In this document: in pieces, positions 524 to 6,583 of the stretch
How the letters are laid out: the number at the start of each line of letters is the position of its first letter
Position numbering within the stretch: the stretch's first letter is position 1
Source of the DNA: Candidatus Melainabacteria bacterium
GTDB taxonomy: Bacteria; Cyanobacteriota; Vampirovibrionia; Obscuribacterales; Obscuribacteraceae
Assembly: GCA_003963305.1 (NCBI GenBank)
Contig: RXJR01000002.1
Coordinates: 46,913-110,912 of the forward strand
Direction of reading: 5' to 3'
DNA length: 64,000 nucleotides
Notes under the pieces: generated by a model
What the model was told of the DNA's origin: nothing
Database searches by the model: none
What the model saw: the letters and a program-made list of their open reading frames with translations, nothing else
Translations under genes and position numbers: made by a program

Positions 524-2047
524 TTATGCAATCAGACAACAGCGTACGAGCTCGTCTCTAACCTGCCTGGCAGAATCGAATCTTGCTGTCGGATCCTTTT
601 GCAGACACTTTTGCACAACCTGCTCCAGCTGCAGCGGAACATTTGCCTGGGTGATCAGGCTCATGGCGGGAGCAGTCTCAAAAACTTGCTGCCGGATAGT
701 TTCGCAAGTACTAGACCCATAAAATGGCGGTCGCCCGGTCAATGTTTCAAACATCAGACAGCCAAGCGAATAAAGGTCGGAACGTTCGTCCATCGGGCTA
801 TCAGTGCATTGCTCAGGACTCATATAGACAGGACTGCCGAATACTTCTCCTTGAGCAGTCAATGAAACAGTCTGAGAGCCGATTTTTTGCGAGATTTTGG
901 CGATTCCAAAATCTACGACTTTGACTTTCTCTCCACGCTCGCTTTCACTGATGATAATGTTGCCTGGCTTCAGATCTCGATGGATAATCTTTTTCTGGTG
1001 TGCGTGCTCGAGCGCATCACAAAGTTGAACAAAAATGTTCAGCGCTTTAGCGCTGGGCAAAGAGCCGCTCTCCGTGATAATGGAAGCGAGAGTTCGTCCC
1101 TCGACAAAGTCCATAATCAGAAAAATCTGCCCCTGCGGTGTGATACCAAAGTCATGTGCAGTTACGATGTTCGGATGTTCAAGGCTGCTAGTAACTTGTG
1201 CCTCTTGCCGAAATCGTTTCATGCTTTTTAAATCTGCCACCAGCTTCGGGGCCAGAATTTTGATCGCCACATCATTGTTCATAAACTTATGGCGGGCTCT
1301 ATAGACAGTGCTCATTCCACCGACGCCAACTTGACTCAAAATTTCGTAGCGCTCGGCAAAAACCTTACCGATTAATGGATCGTCCGAAGCTTCCAAACTA
1401 GCTACAGAACGCATCGCGCTCAAAGCTGCCCGAGCCCGATCTGAGCGAGCCAGTTTGTCAATCACTACGTGCATCTCGCTGAGCACAGTACTCAATTCTA
1501 AATTGAGAGCCCTGGCAATCTCATCACCAGACTTTCCCTGCACGATCTGACTCAATATATCAATTTCACCGGGGTCCAGGTCAGCTTTTTGAGGAATGGT
1601 TTTCACTGTCAAATCGCTACTTGTGGCGAAGGTGCGCAGAACACGATTGGCAATCGGAGGCGGCAGCCAAATCGCGCCTTTATAGACGGTCTCAATAGCA
1701 GCTGCGAGTTCCACACTTGAAGCTTCCTTGCTGCAATAACCGTCTGCGCCGGCCGCCAGGGCCGTGAATATCGAATCGTCGTCTATATGTGAAGTAAACA
1801 TGATCACGTGAATCTGAGGATGCTCGCCTTTGACGCGCTTTGCAGCTTCAATTCCATCGATACCAGGCAATCCGATGTCCATCAAAACAACATCCGGCTT
1901 CAAATCAATGGCGCTGGAAACGGCCGAAAGCCCGTCAGAGGCTGTTCCTACGACGTCGAGACGCGCTTCCTTTTGAAGAGCGATCGTAAGACCCAATCTG
2001 ATGAATTCCTGGTCTTCGACAATTAAGACTCTAATTCGATTCGACAT
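524..2047 (-). CDS. Receiver-HTH-Ser/Thr protein kinase fusion
   Basis: Three modules in 507 residues. Residues 5-122 are a CheY-like receiver with acidic pocket E11/D12, phosphoacceptor D57 in VLMDIGLPG, T85 and K107. Residues 157-213 resemble a LuxR/NarL-type helix-turn-helix (DPGEIDILSQIVQGKSGDEIA). Residues 233-505 are a Hanks-type kinase with glycine loop GVGGMSTVYRAR, VAIK lysine K263, HRDLKPGN at 356-363, DFG at 379-381 and SPVYMSPEQ. All catalytic residues are present, so both halves look active. No membrane segment is seen, so it should be cytoplasmic. Known: NarL-type regulators end after the HTH and bacterial Hanks kinases usually carry extracellular sensors. Inferred: phosphorylation of D57 by a histidine kinase, perhaps one at 3521 or elsewhere, gates Ser/Thr phosphorylation. 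The HTH may now be only a linker, because its recognition helix is unusual. Confidence 0.9.
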   Translation of the reverse strand: MSNRIRVLIVEDQEFIRLGLTIALQKEARLDVVGTASDGLSAVSSAIDLKPDVVLMDIGLPGIDGIEAAKRVKGEHPQIHVIMFTSHIDDDSIFTALAAGADGYCSKEASSVELAAAIETVYKGAIWLPPPIANRVLRTFATSSDLTVKTIPQKADLDPGEIDILSQIVQGKSGDEIARALNLELSTVLSEMHVVIDKLARSDRARAALSAMRSVASLEASDDPLIGKVFAERYEILSQVGVGGMSTVYRARHKFMNNDVAIKILAPKLVADLKSMKRFRQEAQVTSSLEHPNIVTAHDFGITPQGQIFLIMDFVEGRTLASIITESGSLPSAKALNIFVQLCDALEHAHQKKIIHRDLKPGNIIISESERGEKVKVVDFGIAKISQKIGSQTVSLTAQGEVFGSPVYMSPEQCTDSPMDERSDLYSLGCLMFETLTGRPPFYGSSTCETIRQQVFETAPAMSLITQANVPLQLEQVVQKCLQKDPTARFDSARQVRDELVRCCLIA

Positions 2048-2671: not shown

Positions 2672-3352
2672 CTATCGGCTGACAACCATGCGAAAACGCT
2701 CGCTGCTATGTACTCTGGTTGGCATCAGTTGCTGGGAAGATCCGGCGCTGCCACAGGTGGACGGTGCGTACATCGATGCGGCGGAGAACTGTCCTGACGC
2801 TGCTTGCGACTGATATCCACCAGGCATGAAAGATGAAAACATCAGAGGTGCCAGAGATGGTCTTGTGGCCGAACTTTGAACATTTCCGCCAGCTTCACCA
2901 TAACCTGACGTCATTTGGGCACCGCGTGCATCACCAGGAGTTCTTGGAGAACCGAAGGCAGCGGGTGCGGAAGATACCGGAGACGTCAATGCCTGATCTT
3001 GGGATGACTGTGAAAACTCAGGCATTGCCTGATGTGGATTGACGGCCGTCAGTTGCTGATTCCAGACGGCGTTCGAGACGACATGGTCAGGACTGTCTTT
3101 ATGGTGCAAATAATGCAAAAGGCAAAGCCAGCCAAACATTGCACCAATTACCCCGAACATGACCAAAAGAGGCTTCGAATTCGCTTTGAGCATATTCACC
3201 CAGAAGGAATCAGCCTGCATTGCCATGTTCCAGCTAGCCGAACTGGAAGGTGCACCGCCGTGGTGATGATGATGATGGTGGGTGCCGTGGCCGTGACCAC
3301 TATGGTGGCCACCATGCCCGTGCCCTGCGCCGCCGCCGCCGCCATGATGCAT
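2672..3352 (-). CDS. His/Gly-rich single-pass membrane protein
   Basis: Residues 1-33 consist almost wholly of His and Gly, including a run of seven His. One membrane segment follows at about 58-82 (LLVMFGVIGAMFGWLCLLHYL). The C-terminal 140 residues are Ser/Gly/Ala/Gln-rich and look disordered, with little hydrophobic core. The N-terminus could bind Zn, Ni or Cu, a property of His-rich tracts in metal chaperones, but no enzyme domain is visible. The ATG at 3352 has AAGG about 10 nt upstream. The frame stays open for 19 codons further upstream without an ATG, GTG or TTG. The gene is divergent from the tandem sensor kinase and converges on the degenerate receiver. Family unknown. Confidence 0.65.
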   Translation of the reverse strand: MHHGGGGGAGHGHGGHHSGHGHGTHHHHHHHGGAPSSSASWNMAMQADSFWVNMLKANSKPLLVMFGVIGAMFGWLCLLHYLHHKDSPDHVVSNAVWNQQLTAVNPHQAMPEFSQSSQDQALTSPVSSAPAAFGSPRTPGDARGAQMTSGYGEAGGNVQSSATRPSLAPLMFSSFMPGGYQSQAASGQFSAASMYAPSTCGSAGSSQQLMPTRVHSSERFRMVVSR

Positions 3353-3520: not shown

Positions 3521-6500
3521 ATGGTGGAGACCAACCAAGCGACACAGGATCAATTCAAACCGGCAATCGCCAGACGAGCGCTGCTCATGGTGCTTGTACC
3601 GGCTCTATTGAGCAGTGGTTTGTTGCTCTACCTGAACAAGCAGTGGGCAAATGAGAGCCTTATCGCCTGGCAACAGAACAAAAATTATGAAAGCGTCGCC
3701 CACGAATTCTTCAATATGGAGCATGCCAAAGAGATAACGATGGGGGCCCGGCGCGGAGCACCAATTGAAATCGTTCATCAAGAAAATGTTCTGGCCAAAG
3801 CAGAATTGAAGTTGCTGAAGCAGACCGCCAGAGAAAGCGGTGCATCTCAGAAGACACTAGATTTGATCGAGAAACTCGATCAAGCCCAATCCAAAACGCT
3901 GACGGATCTGTATGACAAAAGTCCACAACTGATGTTGGATCATTTTCGGCATAAAGACCTCAAACTAAGCGATCTTCTGGCCGTGTCGAAAGTAATTTCC
4001 TCAGGCACCAGTGTCGCGGAAGTTGGTGAGGCCCTCGATGAATCCATGGACGAGGACGTAGCCAACAAGAAATTGCAGCAAGACGAAGCCAGACAGAGAG
4101 TGAAGTGGACGACAGTGGTACTGGCCTTTTGCATTTTTGCAATCGCCTTAACGCTCTTGATCAGGTTCAGTTCAGCTGTGCTGAGGCGGCTAAATACCGT
4201 GATCATAAATGCCCACCTGGTGGGCGGGCGCAATGAGGTATTAAACACGCTGCCCGGCAACGACGAACTCAGTTATCTCAACTCGATACTGCTTGGCGCC
4301 GATCTGGAGTTGAAAGTTGCTGAAGAACATCGCAAAGCTCTGATGGAGATGGTCGCGCACGACATGCGCTCTCCTCTCATGGCATCGCAGGTTTCACTTG
4401 AAATAGTTGAAAAACAAAGCGAACTTCTGCCGGAAAAATTCAAGCAGGGTCTATTGATGGCGCAAAAAAATCTCAAGCGAGTTTTGCAGTTCATTGAAGA
4501 ATTGCTTTCCATCGAAAAGCTTGAGGCAGGCGACATTGAATTGACTTTCTGCAGATATCAAATTAACGAGGCCGTTGAGGACTGCATCAACTCTTTAGAA
4601 GAACTGGCCGGCAAACGCAAAGTGACGCTCTCAAACTTGTGCACGCCGATTGAAATATTGGCGGACAAGCGGCGAATCGAGCAGGTTCTGACGAACTTCA
4701 TTTCAAATGCGATCAAATTCTCGCCGGAGCACTCTGAAGTGCAGATTCTCAACGATACCATCCACGATCAGGTTCGAATTTACGTCAAAGATCAAGGTCG
4801 AGGTATGAGCAAAGCCTCTTGCCGTAAGGTATTTGATCGCTATTGCCAGACTGCTGAAGGAAGGCAAAAGCAAGGTTACGGATTAGGTCTGGCCATCTGC
4901 AGGCTGCTCGTTCAGGCTCACGGAGGTCAGGTCGGCGCCGACAGCGAACCTGGTGAAGGCTCGACTTTCTGGCTCAGGCTGCCACTGTCGAAACAAGATG
5001 GAGCCGCCGCCGGCGAAAGTGCACCAGTCGACTATCTCAAGTCCAAAGTTGCCGCATTCAAAACGCGAGAACATGCTTTTGATTTCCGACATCCGAGAAT
5101 GCTCGAAAAAATCTTGCTCTGCGCCGTTCCTCCTCTTCTATTTGAAGCGTGCATGCTCGGCTGGATTAGCCACGGAATACTTGAAACAGAGAATTTAAGT
5201 AACAAAGCACGCGACAACTATTTCGCCATGCACTGCCTGAATTACACCATTTCCCTGCTCTCCGTGGGCGATATGCGCCTGCTGCGATATTTTATGACCG
5301 AGCACACGAAGGATCGAGACCTGGCCCTGCAAGATTTCGCTAAAGTGCACGCCAAGTTGACAGAATTTCAAAGTCACAAACCTGCAGACCAGACCGCCGA
5401 AAATGCCTTGAAGACTTGCATGAGCACGCTAGGTCTGCTGACAAAACTGGAACAATTGGCTAAGAACCCAGGGGCGGAGCGCTTCGACAACATTCACGAA
5501 GTATCGGCACTGATGTCTGAGCAGAACAGAGAAATCAGCTTCGAAAAACAAGAGCAATTGACACGTCGAGACTTGCTGCTCAACCAACAGGAGCTTCTTA
5601 AACTGAGCGAAGAAGAGCTGGCCAAACGCACAAGCGTGCAAAGCCAAATATACATCGGCATGGCGGCCAACCTGGTATTTGCAACGATTGTAATTGTCGT
5701 GTTCGGGTTGAGCATCACCCGGCGTCTGAACGTTCTCGTCGAGCATGCCAGAATGCTGCCGAAGAAAGAACCGGTTGAAGCCACCGTCTCCGGAGATGAC
5801 GAACTGGCTTACCTGGACACTGTGCTTGAAGGCACCAGCAGCAGACTGATCGAATCTCTGGAGCATCGACGAGCAGTGATGCAAATGGTGGCACACGACA
5901 TGCGCTCACCGTTGATGGCGGCGCAGGCGTCGATCGAACTGCTCAATGCGGTGCACGGCGAATCCTTGCCTGCGGTGGGGCGCAGACATCTGCCTGCAGC
6001 GGAAAAAAACATCGATCGCATTCTCCATCTGGTTAACGATCTACTGACTCTGGACAAACTGGAGGCCGGCAGACTGGAGCTCGAGCTGGCACCATGCAAC
6101 ATTCGACAGCTTACAGACGAGGCAATTGCGACGGTAGGAGGGTTGGCAACAAAAGAAGGGATATCACTTCTCAACGAATGCCAAGCAATCGAGATCGAAG
6201 CTGATGCAGCCAGACTCAATCAAGTCTTATCCAACCTGATAAGCAATGCCGTCAAGTTTTCTGCCAGAGATACGACCGTCAGAATAATCTCTAGAACCAA
6301 GCCAAATTCAGTCGATATCGGTGTTAGAGATAACGGGCCGGGCATGGATGCCCAGACAGCGGCACACGTATTCGAGAAGTTTTTCCAATCAGAAGGCGAA
6401 AAGAAAAGCCAGGGGTTTGGCCTGGGGCTGGCCATCTGCAAGCTGATTGCCGAGTCTCATGGCGGCGCAGTTTCCGTTGATACCGAGCAGGGCAAAGGTT

Positions 6501-6583
6501 CGACCTTCTGGATTTCTCTACCATCACAAAAACAGCAAGCGGTAACCCATCTGCACGCCACCGGCGCAGACCGGCAAGCCTGA
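3521..6583 (+). CDS. Tandem double sensor histidine kinase
   Basis: A 1020-residue protein made of two complete sensor kinases head to tail. Unit 1: membrane segment 21-38, extracytoplasmic helical region to about 190, second membrane segment 192-215, HAMP-like linker, HisKA with H280 in MVAHDMRSPLM, and HATPase with NFISNAIKFS and GYGLGLAICRL up to about 500. Unit 2: membrane segment about 527-545, helical sensor region with coiled-coil character to about 705, membrane segment 708-730, HAMP-like linker, HisKA with H792 in an identical MVAHDMRSPLM box, and HATPase with NLISNAVKFS and GFGLGLAICKL. The ATP-lid and G-box motifs are intact in both, so both should autophosphorylate. No receiver domain is attached. 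The two halves clearly arose by duplication but have diverged most in their sensor regions, so they may sense different things. The upstream ribosome site is weak. Confidence 0.93.
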   Translation: MVETNQATQDQFKPAIARRALLMVLVPALLSSGLLLYLNKQWANESLIAWQQNKNYESVAHEFFNMEHAKEITMGARRGAPIEIVHQENVLAKAELKLLKQTARESGASQKTLDLIEKLDQAQSKTLTDLYDKSPQLMLDHFRHKDLKLSDLLAVSKVISSGTSVAEVGEALDESMDEDVANKKLQQDEARQRVKWTTVVLAFCIFAIALTLLIRFSSAVLRRLNTVIINAHLVGGRNEVLNTLPGNDELSYLNSILLGADLELKVAEEHRKALMEMVAHDMRSPLMASQVSLEIVEKQSELLPEKFKQGLLMAQKNLKRVLQFIEELLSIEKLEAGDIELTFCRYQINEAVEDCINSLEELAGKRKVTLSNLCTPIEILADKRRIEQVLTNFISNAIKFSPEHSEVQILNDTIHDQVRIYVKDQGRGMSKASCRKVFDRYCQTAEGRQKQGYGLGLAICRLLVQAHGGQVGADSEPGEGSTFWLRLPLSKQDGAAAGESAPVDYLKSKVAAFKTREHAFDFRHPRMLEKILLCAVPPLLFEACMLGWISHGILETENLSNKARDNYFAMHCLNYTISLLSVGDMRLLRYFMTEHTKDRDLALQDFAKVHAKLTEFQSHKPADQTAENALKTCMSTLGLLTKLEQLAKNPGAERFDNIHEVSALMSEQNREISFEKQEQLTRRDLLLNQQELLKLSEEELAKRTSVQSQIYIGMAANLVFATIVIVVFGLSITRRLNVLVEHARMLPKKEPVEATVSGDDELAYLDTVLEGTSSRLIESLEHRRAVMQMVAHDMRSPLMAAQASIELLNAVHGESLPAVGRRHLPAAEKNIDRILHLVNDLLTLDKLEAGRLELELAPCNIRQLTDEAIATVGGLATKEGISLLNECQAIEIEADAARLNQVLSNLISNAVKFSARDTTVRIISRTKPNSVDIGVRDNGPGMDAQTAAHVFEKFFQSEGEKKSQGFGLGLAICKLIAESHGGAVSVDTEQGKGSTFWISLPSQKQQAVTHLHATGADRQA

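Follow-up and report, generated by a model that had tools for sequence, protein, structure and literature searches.

The window, a stretch of 64,000 nucleotides from a Candidatus Melainabacteria bacterium (GenBank assembly GCA_003963305.1, contig RXJR01000002.1, positions 46,913 to 110,912 of the forward strand), carries at 3521-6583 (+) a gene predicted to encode two complete membrane-bound sensor histidine kinases in one polypeptide, and the question raised by this locus is whether the two halves, termed A and B, act upon each other or side by side. The original prediction, made from the DNA sequence, had proposed either an obligate intramolecular heterodimer integrating two signals or trans-phosphorylation between the halves. 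Comparison with relatives indicated that the protein belongs to a family of tandem kinases in which, in most members, the phospho-acceptor histidine and the ATP site are divided between the halves, a pattern that points to phosphotransfer across them, and that the window protein is one of the few members in which both halves have kept both functions.

The gene was found to be one open frame (1020 aa) free of stops and frameshifts. The halves were searched separately against Pfam and all four matches to HisKA (PF00512) and HATPase_c (PF02518) were above the cut-off, with HisKA at residues 272-337 (E=2e-7) and HATPase_c at residues 382-490 (E=1.9e-27) in half A, and HisKA (E=1.4e-11) and HATPase_c (E=5.4e-29) in half B. 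The H box MVAHDMRSPLM is present exactly twice, providing the phospho-acceptors H280 (codon 4358-4360) and H792 (codon 5894-5896), and six of six positions of the ATP-site N, G1 and G2 motifs are intact in each half. Each half is therefore predicted to be a HisKA-type sensor histidine kinase in its own right, and the assignment of the window protein as a pair of such kinases in one chain was confirmed at the level of sequence. Sequence identity between the halves is 42% across the 288 aa that run from the HAMP-like linker through the CA domain (E=2e-77), and hydropathy placed two hydrophobic segments in each half, giving four transmembrane (TM) segments. No Pfam match to HAMP was obtained for the window protein; the linker nonetheless carries a HAMP-like DE motif that is invariant across the family. 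Pfam likewise returned no PAS match and, over all 1020 aa, no Response_reg match, and the protein lacks the receiver or Hpt domain of a hybrid histidine kinase. In NCBIfam, each half matched HisKA/HATPase_c kinases of the PhoR/WalK/CreC type, and Foldseek matched only single-chain kinases, with fold matches to the cores of HK853, CusS, RetS and DivL. The AlphaFold2 models had a mean predicted local distance difference test (pLDDT) score of 77.9 and 76.8 and a predicted template modelling (pTM) score of 0.56 and 0.52. Two full units of TM segment, sensor, HAMP-like linker, HisKA and HATPase, with identical H boxes, had been proposed originally, and both proposals were borne out, the HAMP region by its motif and not by a Pfam match. 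A syntenic ortholog was identified in a sister species (genome G002, L030:9254-11629, 791 aa, 53% identical to the window protein). The parts of the protein are as follows.

3521..6583, +: tandem sensor histidine kinase, 1020 aa, single open reading frame (ORF) with two HisKA and two HATPase_c domains
3572..3637, +: TM1 of half A (residues 18-39; hydropathy)
3638..4096, +: sensor A, predicted all-helical (residues 40-192; AlphaFold2 secondary structure, hhalign homology to sensor B)
4097..4306, +: TM2 and HAMP-like linker of half A (residues 193-262; hydropathy, DE motif D248/E249, HAMP A/B similarity Z 16.7)
4307..4525, +: HisKA/DHp of half A with H280 (Pfam HisKA, motif)
4664..4990, +: HATPase_c of half A, N, G1 and G2 6/6 (Pfam, motif table)
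4997..5095, +: inter-half linker (residues 493-525; pLDDT <50 at 493-520, 21% identity to the ortholog)
5102..5170, +: TM1 of half B (residues 528-550; hydropathy)
5171..5641, +: sensor B, predicted all-helical (residues 551-707; AlphaFold2 secondary structure, hhalign to sensor A)
5642..5845, +: TM2 and HAMP-like linker of half B (residues 708-775; hydropathy, HAMP A/B similarity)
5846..6070, +: HisKA/DHp of half B with H792 (Pfam, motif)
6203..6529, +: HATPase_c of half B, N, G1 and G2 6/6 (Pfam, motif table)

Relatives were collected by searching the window's family (50 genomes) and by directed retrieval, the sample consisting of draft genomes of Obscuribacterales-like Melainabacteria. A total of 41 different membrane-bound tandem kinase ORFs were tabulated, nearly all with four TM segments; as judged from the predicted proteins, the tandem form is real and widespread within the window's own family, and its absence from related genomes, which the original prediction had named as a way in which it could fail, was not observed. 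A tandem profile was also run against 386 genomes across the phylum, drawn mostly from other families and scored for the top candidates per genome only, and gave no match outside its own genome at E<=1e-100; in three other-family genomes of the order there was no tandem match at 1e-150.

Each half was then scored for the phospho-acceptor histidine and the six ATP-site positions, at least five of which had to be intact for a half to count as ATP-positive. Complementary halves, one retaining the histidine without the ATP site and the other the ATP site without the histidine, were observed in 34 of the 41 tandems, a count that includes close relatives and is thus not one of independent cases. The histidine is kept in half A and the ATP site in half B in 19, and the polarity is reversed in 15, three of which (L026, L031:5393 and L098) still have 4/6 positions in the decayed ATP site. 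A single loss only was seen in five tandems (L002, L024, L050, L122 and L124:1211), both halves are intact in two (the window protein and L032, of the same genome), and both losses fell in the same half in none. The residues found in place of a lost histidine are D, E, N, Q, R, S and G, and the L067-L074 and L137-L144 groups have undergone deletion of the entire first ATPase domain. The half lacking the histidine has never lost the DHp fold, as would be expected if a histidine-less DHp were needed as dimer partner, and the histidine-bearing half has often lost the whole CA domain. Among single-kinase ORFs at the same loci the histidine was kept in 62 of 66, and in a wider pass 63 of 74 single-kinase ORFs were fully canonical, the noncanonical ones being found mostly in adjacent complementary gene pairs (L040:14277-17848, L047:1203-5026, L138:1801-4722 and L114:3-2997, the last with overlapping frames), which indicates that the same partition of histidine and ATPase also exists between unfused genes. 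A cluster of six tandem kinases within approximately 25 kb was noted on contig 66 of G002 (L123:2568-12074, L044:5353-8427 and L124:1211-7382); all six lack the histidine in half A and vary in the decay of the ATP site in half B.

The history of these losses was assessed on a tree of the tandem proteins from which the H box and the ATPase domains had been removed. The best tree required 8 state changes, supported branches forced at least three changes for each complementary polarity, and the two polarities were interleaved, indicating that the losses arose repeatedly; if lost functions are not regained, more independent events are needed. L012, for example, sits on a long branch in a well-supported clade whose polarity is the reverse of its own. 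A sign test of complementarity on independent pairs was not significant, there being too few supported pairs.

As for the origin of the two halves, the sensor regions had originally been described as different, and in the window protein itself no pairwise similarity between sensor A and sensor B was detectable (Z 0.3). Alignments of the two sensors from the tandem relatives, however, matched each other in hhalign with a probability of 98% (E=1.4e-13), and both sensors are predicted by AlphaFold2 to be all-helical. Unrelated sensors were ruled out by this profile-profile match; the description holds as regards the strong divergence of the sequences, which appear to be diverged copies. Given that the sensors are homologous, the window protein is, on sequence evidence, an old duplication of a whole sensor kinase and not a fusion of two unlike receptors. 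In trees of each half against single kinases, a comparison that the original prediction had called for, window half A grouped with the ortholog and other A-halves, and the B-halves and single kinases lay apart, suggesting that the fusion is old and that the tandem has been maintained. A recent internal duplication in the window genome was not favoured, as window half A lies with the A-halves and window half B elsewhere; a clade joining A and B of the window protein was not significantly rejected (approximately unbiased test, p-AU 0.2).

In ordinary kinases, phosphotransfer takes place inside a DHp four-helix bundle built by two subunits. In the split relatives the only histidine is in one half and the only ATP site in the other, so that phosphotransfer must cross the halves. 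The mechanism that we consider probable from these patterns is that a whole membrane sensor kinase was duplicated and fused long ago, that DHp-A and DHp-B of one chain would pair as a pseudo-heterodimer in the manner of the two subunits of a homodimeric kinase, and that the ATPase domain of one half would phosphorylate the histidine of the other, with both sensors gating the same phosphorylation event and a single response regulator. Many tandem relatives have an OmpR-type regulator gene immediately beside them, one each, from which it appears that two sensors feed one output. In most relatives the pairing would be obligatory, each half having lost what the other supplies; in the window protein, both halves of which retain both functions, each could be donor and acceptor. 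The architecture, the homology of the halves and the complementary losses in the relatives are features of the predicted proteins; we infer pairing within one chain, the direction of transfer, the signals and the partner regulator, and any obligate pairing in the window protein would likewise follow by extension from its family. For the group as a whole, we lean towards a lineage-specific set of single-chain membrane heterodimeric kinases that have repeatedly divided histidine and ATPase in either polarity, thereby forming an obligate two-input (AND-like) sensor, with the window protein as a surviving undivided member.

Several observations weigh against this mechanism. All data are sequences, and come from draft genomes. 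The window protein, being intact in both halves, could form ordinary homodimers or behave as a pair of kinases that work independently, and no dedicated regulator gene adjoins its gene. The G002 ortholog ends approximately 10 residues before the second H box, without HisKA-HATPase B; the gene directly downstream of it is replaced relative to the window, and no remnant of kinase B was found there, tblastn finding kinase A only. As this ortholog has retained sensor B without kinase B, the second catalytic part would be dispensable in that lineage. It is one of two four-TM exceptions outside the 41, the other being L139:1993-4461, in which neither half keeps the histidine and the second ATPase is absent, and which may be an inactive kinase that serves solely as a sensor. 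The intramolecular heterodimer with trans-phosphorylation is strongly supported for the tandem family by the complementary losses and would hold for the window protein, with its two intact halves, by extension from its relatives only, and the word obligate is weakened in its case by the truncated closest ortholog. One reading of that truncation, which we regard as distinctly unlikely, is that the second catalytic half is no longer needed and is in decay, with sensor B serving only as an accessory sensor or allosteric arm. It agrees with the retention in the ortholog of the TM segments, sensor and HAMP-like linker of half B at identities to the window protein (41% for sensor B, 61% for linker B) like those of half A (44% for sensor A, 43% for linker A). 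However, half B of the window protein is undecayed, its H box and six ATP-site positions being intact and its Pfam scores above those of half A. A model in which the halves work as separate kinases, each homodimerising or acting alone, perhaps toward different regulators and without cross-talk, would suit the intact H, N, G1 and G2 motifs of both window halves and of the fully intact L032, but this arrangement is not open to relatives of the same clade, in which neither half alone is a complete kinase and which are adjoined by one regulator gene and not two; we therefore find it quite unlikely.

The complementary losses require transfer across halves and are silent on whether it occurs within or between chains. 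A domain-swapped or intermolecular arrangement, in which A of one chain pairs with B of another, or A:A and B:B bundles lie adjacent and transfer runs between chains, would accommodate them, and the complementary separate gene pairs show that covalent linkage is not needed. Were linkage irrelevant, it would be difficult to see why many lineages have maintained the fusion, and the low-confidence linker at residues 493-520 runs straight into TM1 of half B, which would place the halves adjacent, so that we hold this arrangement to be unlikely. An artefact of assembly or a frameshift fusing two neighbouring kinases, which the original prediction had named as a possible refutation, has in its favour that the window genome is a 44-contig draft in which adjacent kinase gene pairs occur. 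Its probability is nevertheless negligible: the ortholog, from another draft genome, crosses the A/B junction in frame with 53% identity, no near-identical paralog that could cause a mis-join was found in the window genome (best 43%), 41 tandem ORFs are spread across many genera, and in all the species compared the A-halves group apart from the B-halves. With one uninterrupted ORF and an ortholog continuous over the junction, this explanation was rejected.

The surroundings of the gene bear on its possible partner. The window genome (7.5 Mb) contains approximately 140 matches to the window kinase, and the following genes lie upstream.

524..2047, -: fusion of receiver (REC), LuxR-like helix-turn-helix (HTH) and Ser/Thr protein kinase, the nearest receiver-domain gene (Pfam Response_reg E=9.7e-25, Pkinase E=2.7e-55)
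2205-2618, +: short degenerate receiver-like ORF (Response_reg match that stayed under the cut-off; no counterpart seen next to the ortholog)
2672-3352, -: His/Gly-rich membrane-like protein containing a single hydrophobic segment (its position upstream of the kinase gene is conserved in the sister species)

The product of 524..2047 (-) is a possible partner of the window kinase; its gene is absent beside the G002 ortholog. By combining receiver, LuxR-like HTH and Ser/Thr kinase, this product joins two-component signalling to Ser/Thr phosphorylation in an unusual way. Downstream of the kinase lie a gene for an Mrr-like nuclease (Pfam) and one for a putative phosphosugar mutase (assigned by reading the sequence). 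Synteny of the G002 ortholog is given by the same His/Gly-rich gene upstream and the same mutase downstream. In G001, the third genome of the genus, no intact ortholog was found, a result that is uninformative because the flanking phosphosugar mutase and RHS-like genes were also not found there. Elsewhere in the window genome, four consecutive intact sensor kinase genes lie on one strand (L048:1983-9280).

Receiver-free tandem transmitters were almost absent from a 2010 census, which counted only 2 proteins with two transmitters among 15,704 non-hybrid kinases (PMC3018481), and dozens are found here in one bacterial family. No description of a membrane-bound receiver-free tandem with complementary halves, nor of one in this lineage, was found in the literature covered, which is incomplete. 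The complementary decay provides natural evidence of mutual phosphorylation between halves, something that is customarily studied with pairs of engineered mutants. Because unsplit, half-split and fully split members are found together with unfused pairs, how a homodimer gave rise to obligate heteromers becomes directly testable, as does how two-signal integration arose in one receptor; if the window protein is truly an undivided member, it allows a comparison of the states preceding and following the split.

Each window half matches the ordinary PhoR/WalK/CreC type of kinase, whose members carry a single transmitter and act as homodimers. DivL is a kinase homolog of the pseudo- or heteromeric kind that regulates a partner kinase. 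Pseudo-histidine kinases and heteromeric kinases such as RetS/GacS comprise homologs that have no histidine or no catalytic activity and that control a partner kinase (PMC12632262, PMC12189002). Unlike RetS/GacS and DivL, which are separate proteins, the tandem relatives fuse a defective half to its complement, and the two are mutually dependent. TodS of the TodS/TodT system of Pseudomonas putida is a cytoplasmic double sensor kinase with PAS sensors and an internal receiver that operates by a transmitter-receiver-transmitter (T-R-T) phosphorelay (PMC4861429, PMC3018481). The window protein likewise carries two kinase cores, each with its own sensor module, in a single chain, an arrangement for which signal integration has been proposed, but has no receiver between the modules and no cytoplasmic PAS sensors; both of its halves are membrane-bound with helical sensors, and its relatives split histidine and ATPase between the halves. 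In the split kinase CheA3/CheA4 of Rhodobacter sphaeroides, two separate soluble proteins share the work (PMC3591291), and the tandem relatives similarly place the phospho-acceptor histidine and the ATPase in different, mutually required units, as seen in 34 of 41 tandems and not in the window protein. In contrast to that pair, which is of the CheA class, the tandem family is of the HisKA class, is membrane-bound and usually forms one polypeptide, the window protein included, with separate proteins only in the four adjacent gene pairs, and its histidine-less half keeps the DHp. The tandem class is best called, on the sequences compared here, a split kinase inside one chain, and the window protein a member of this family without the split.
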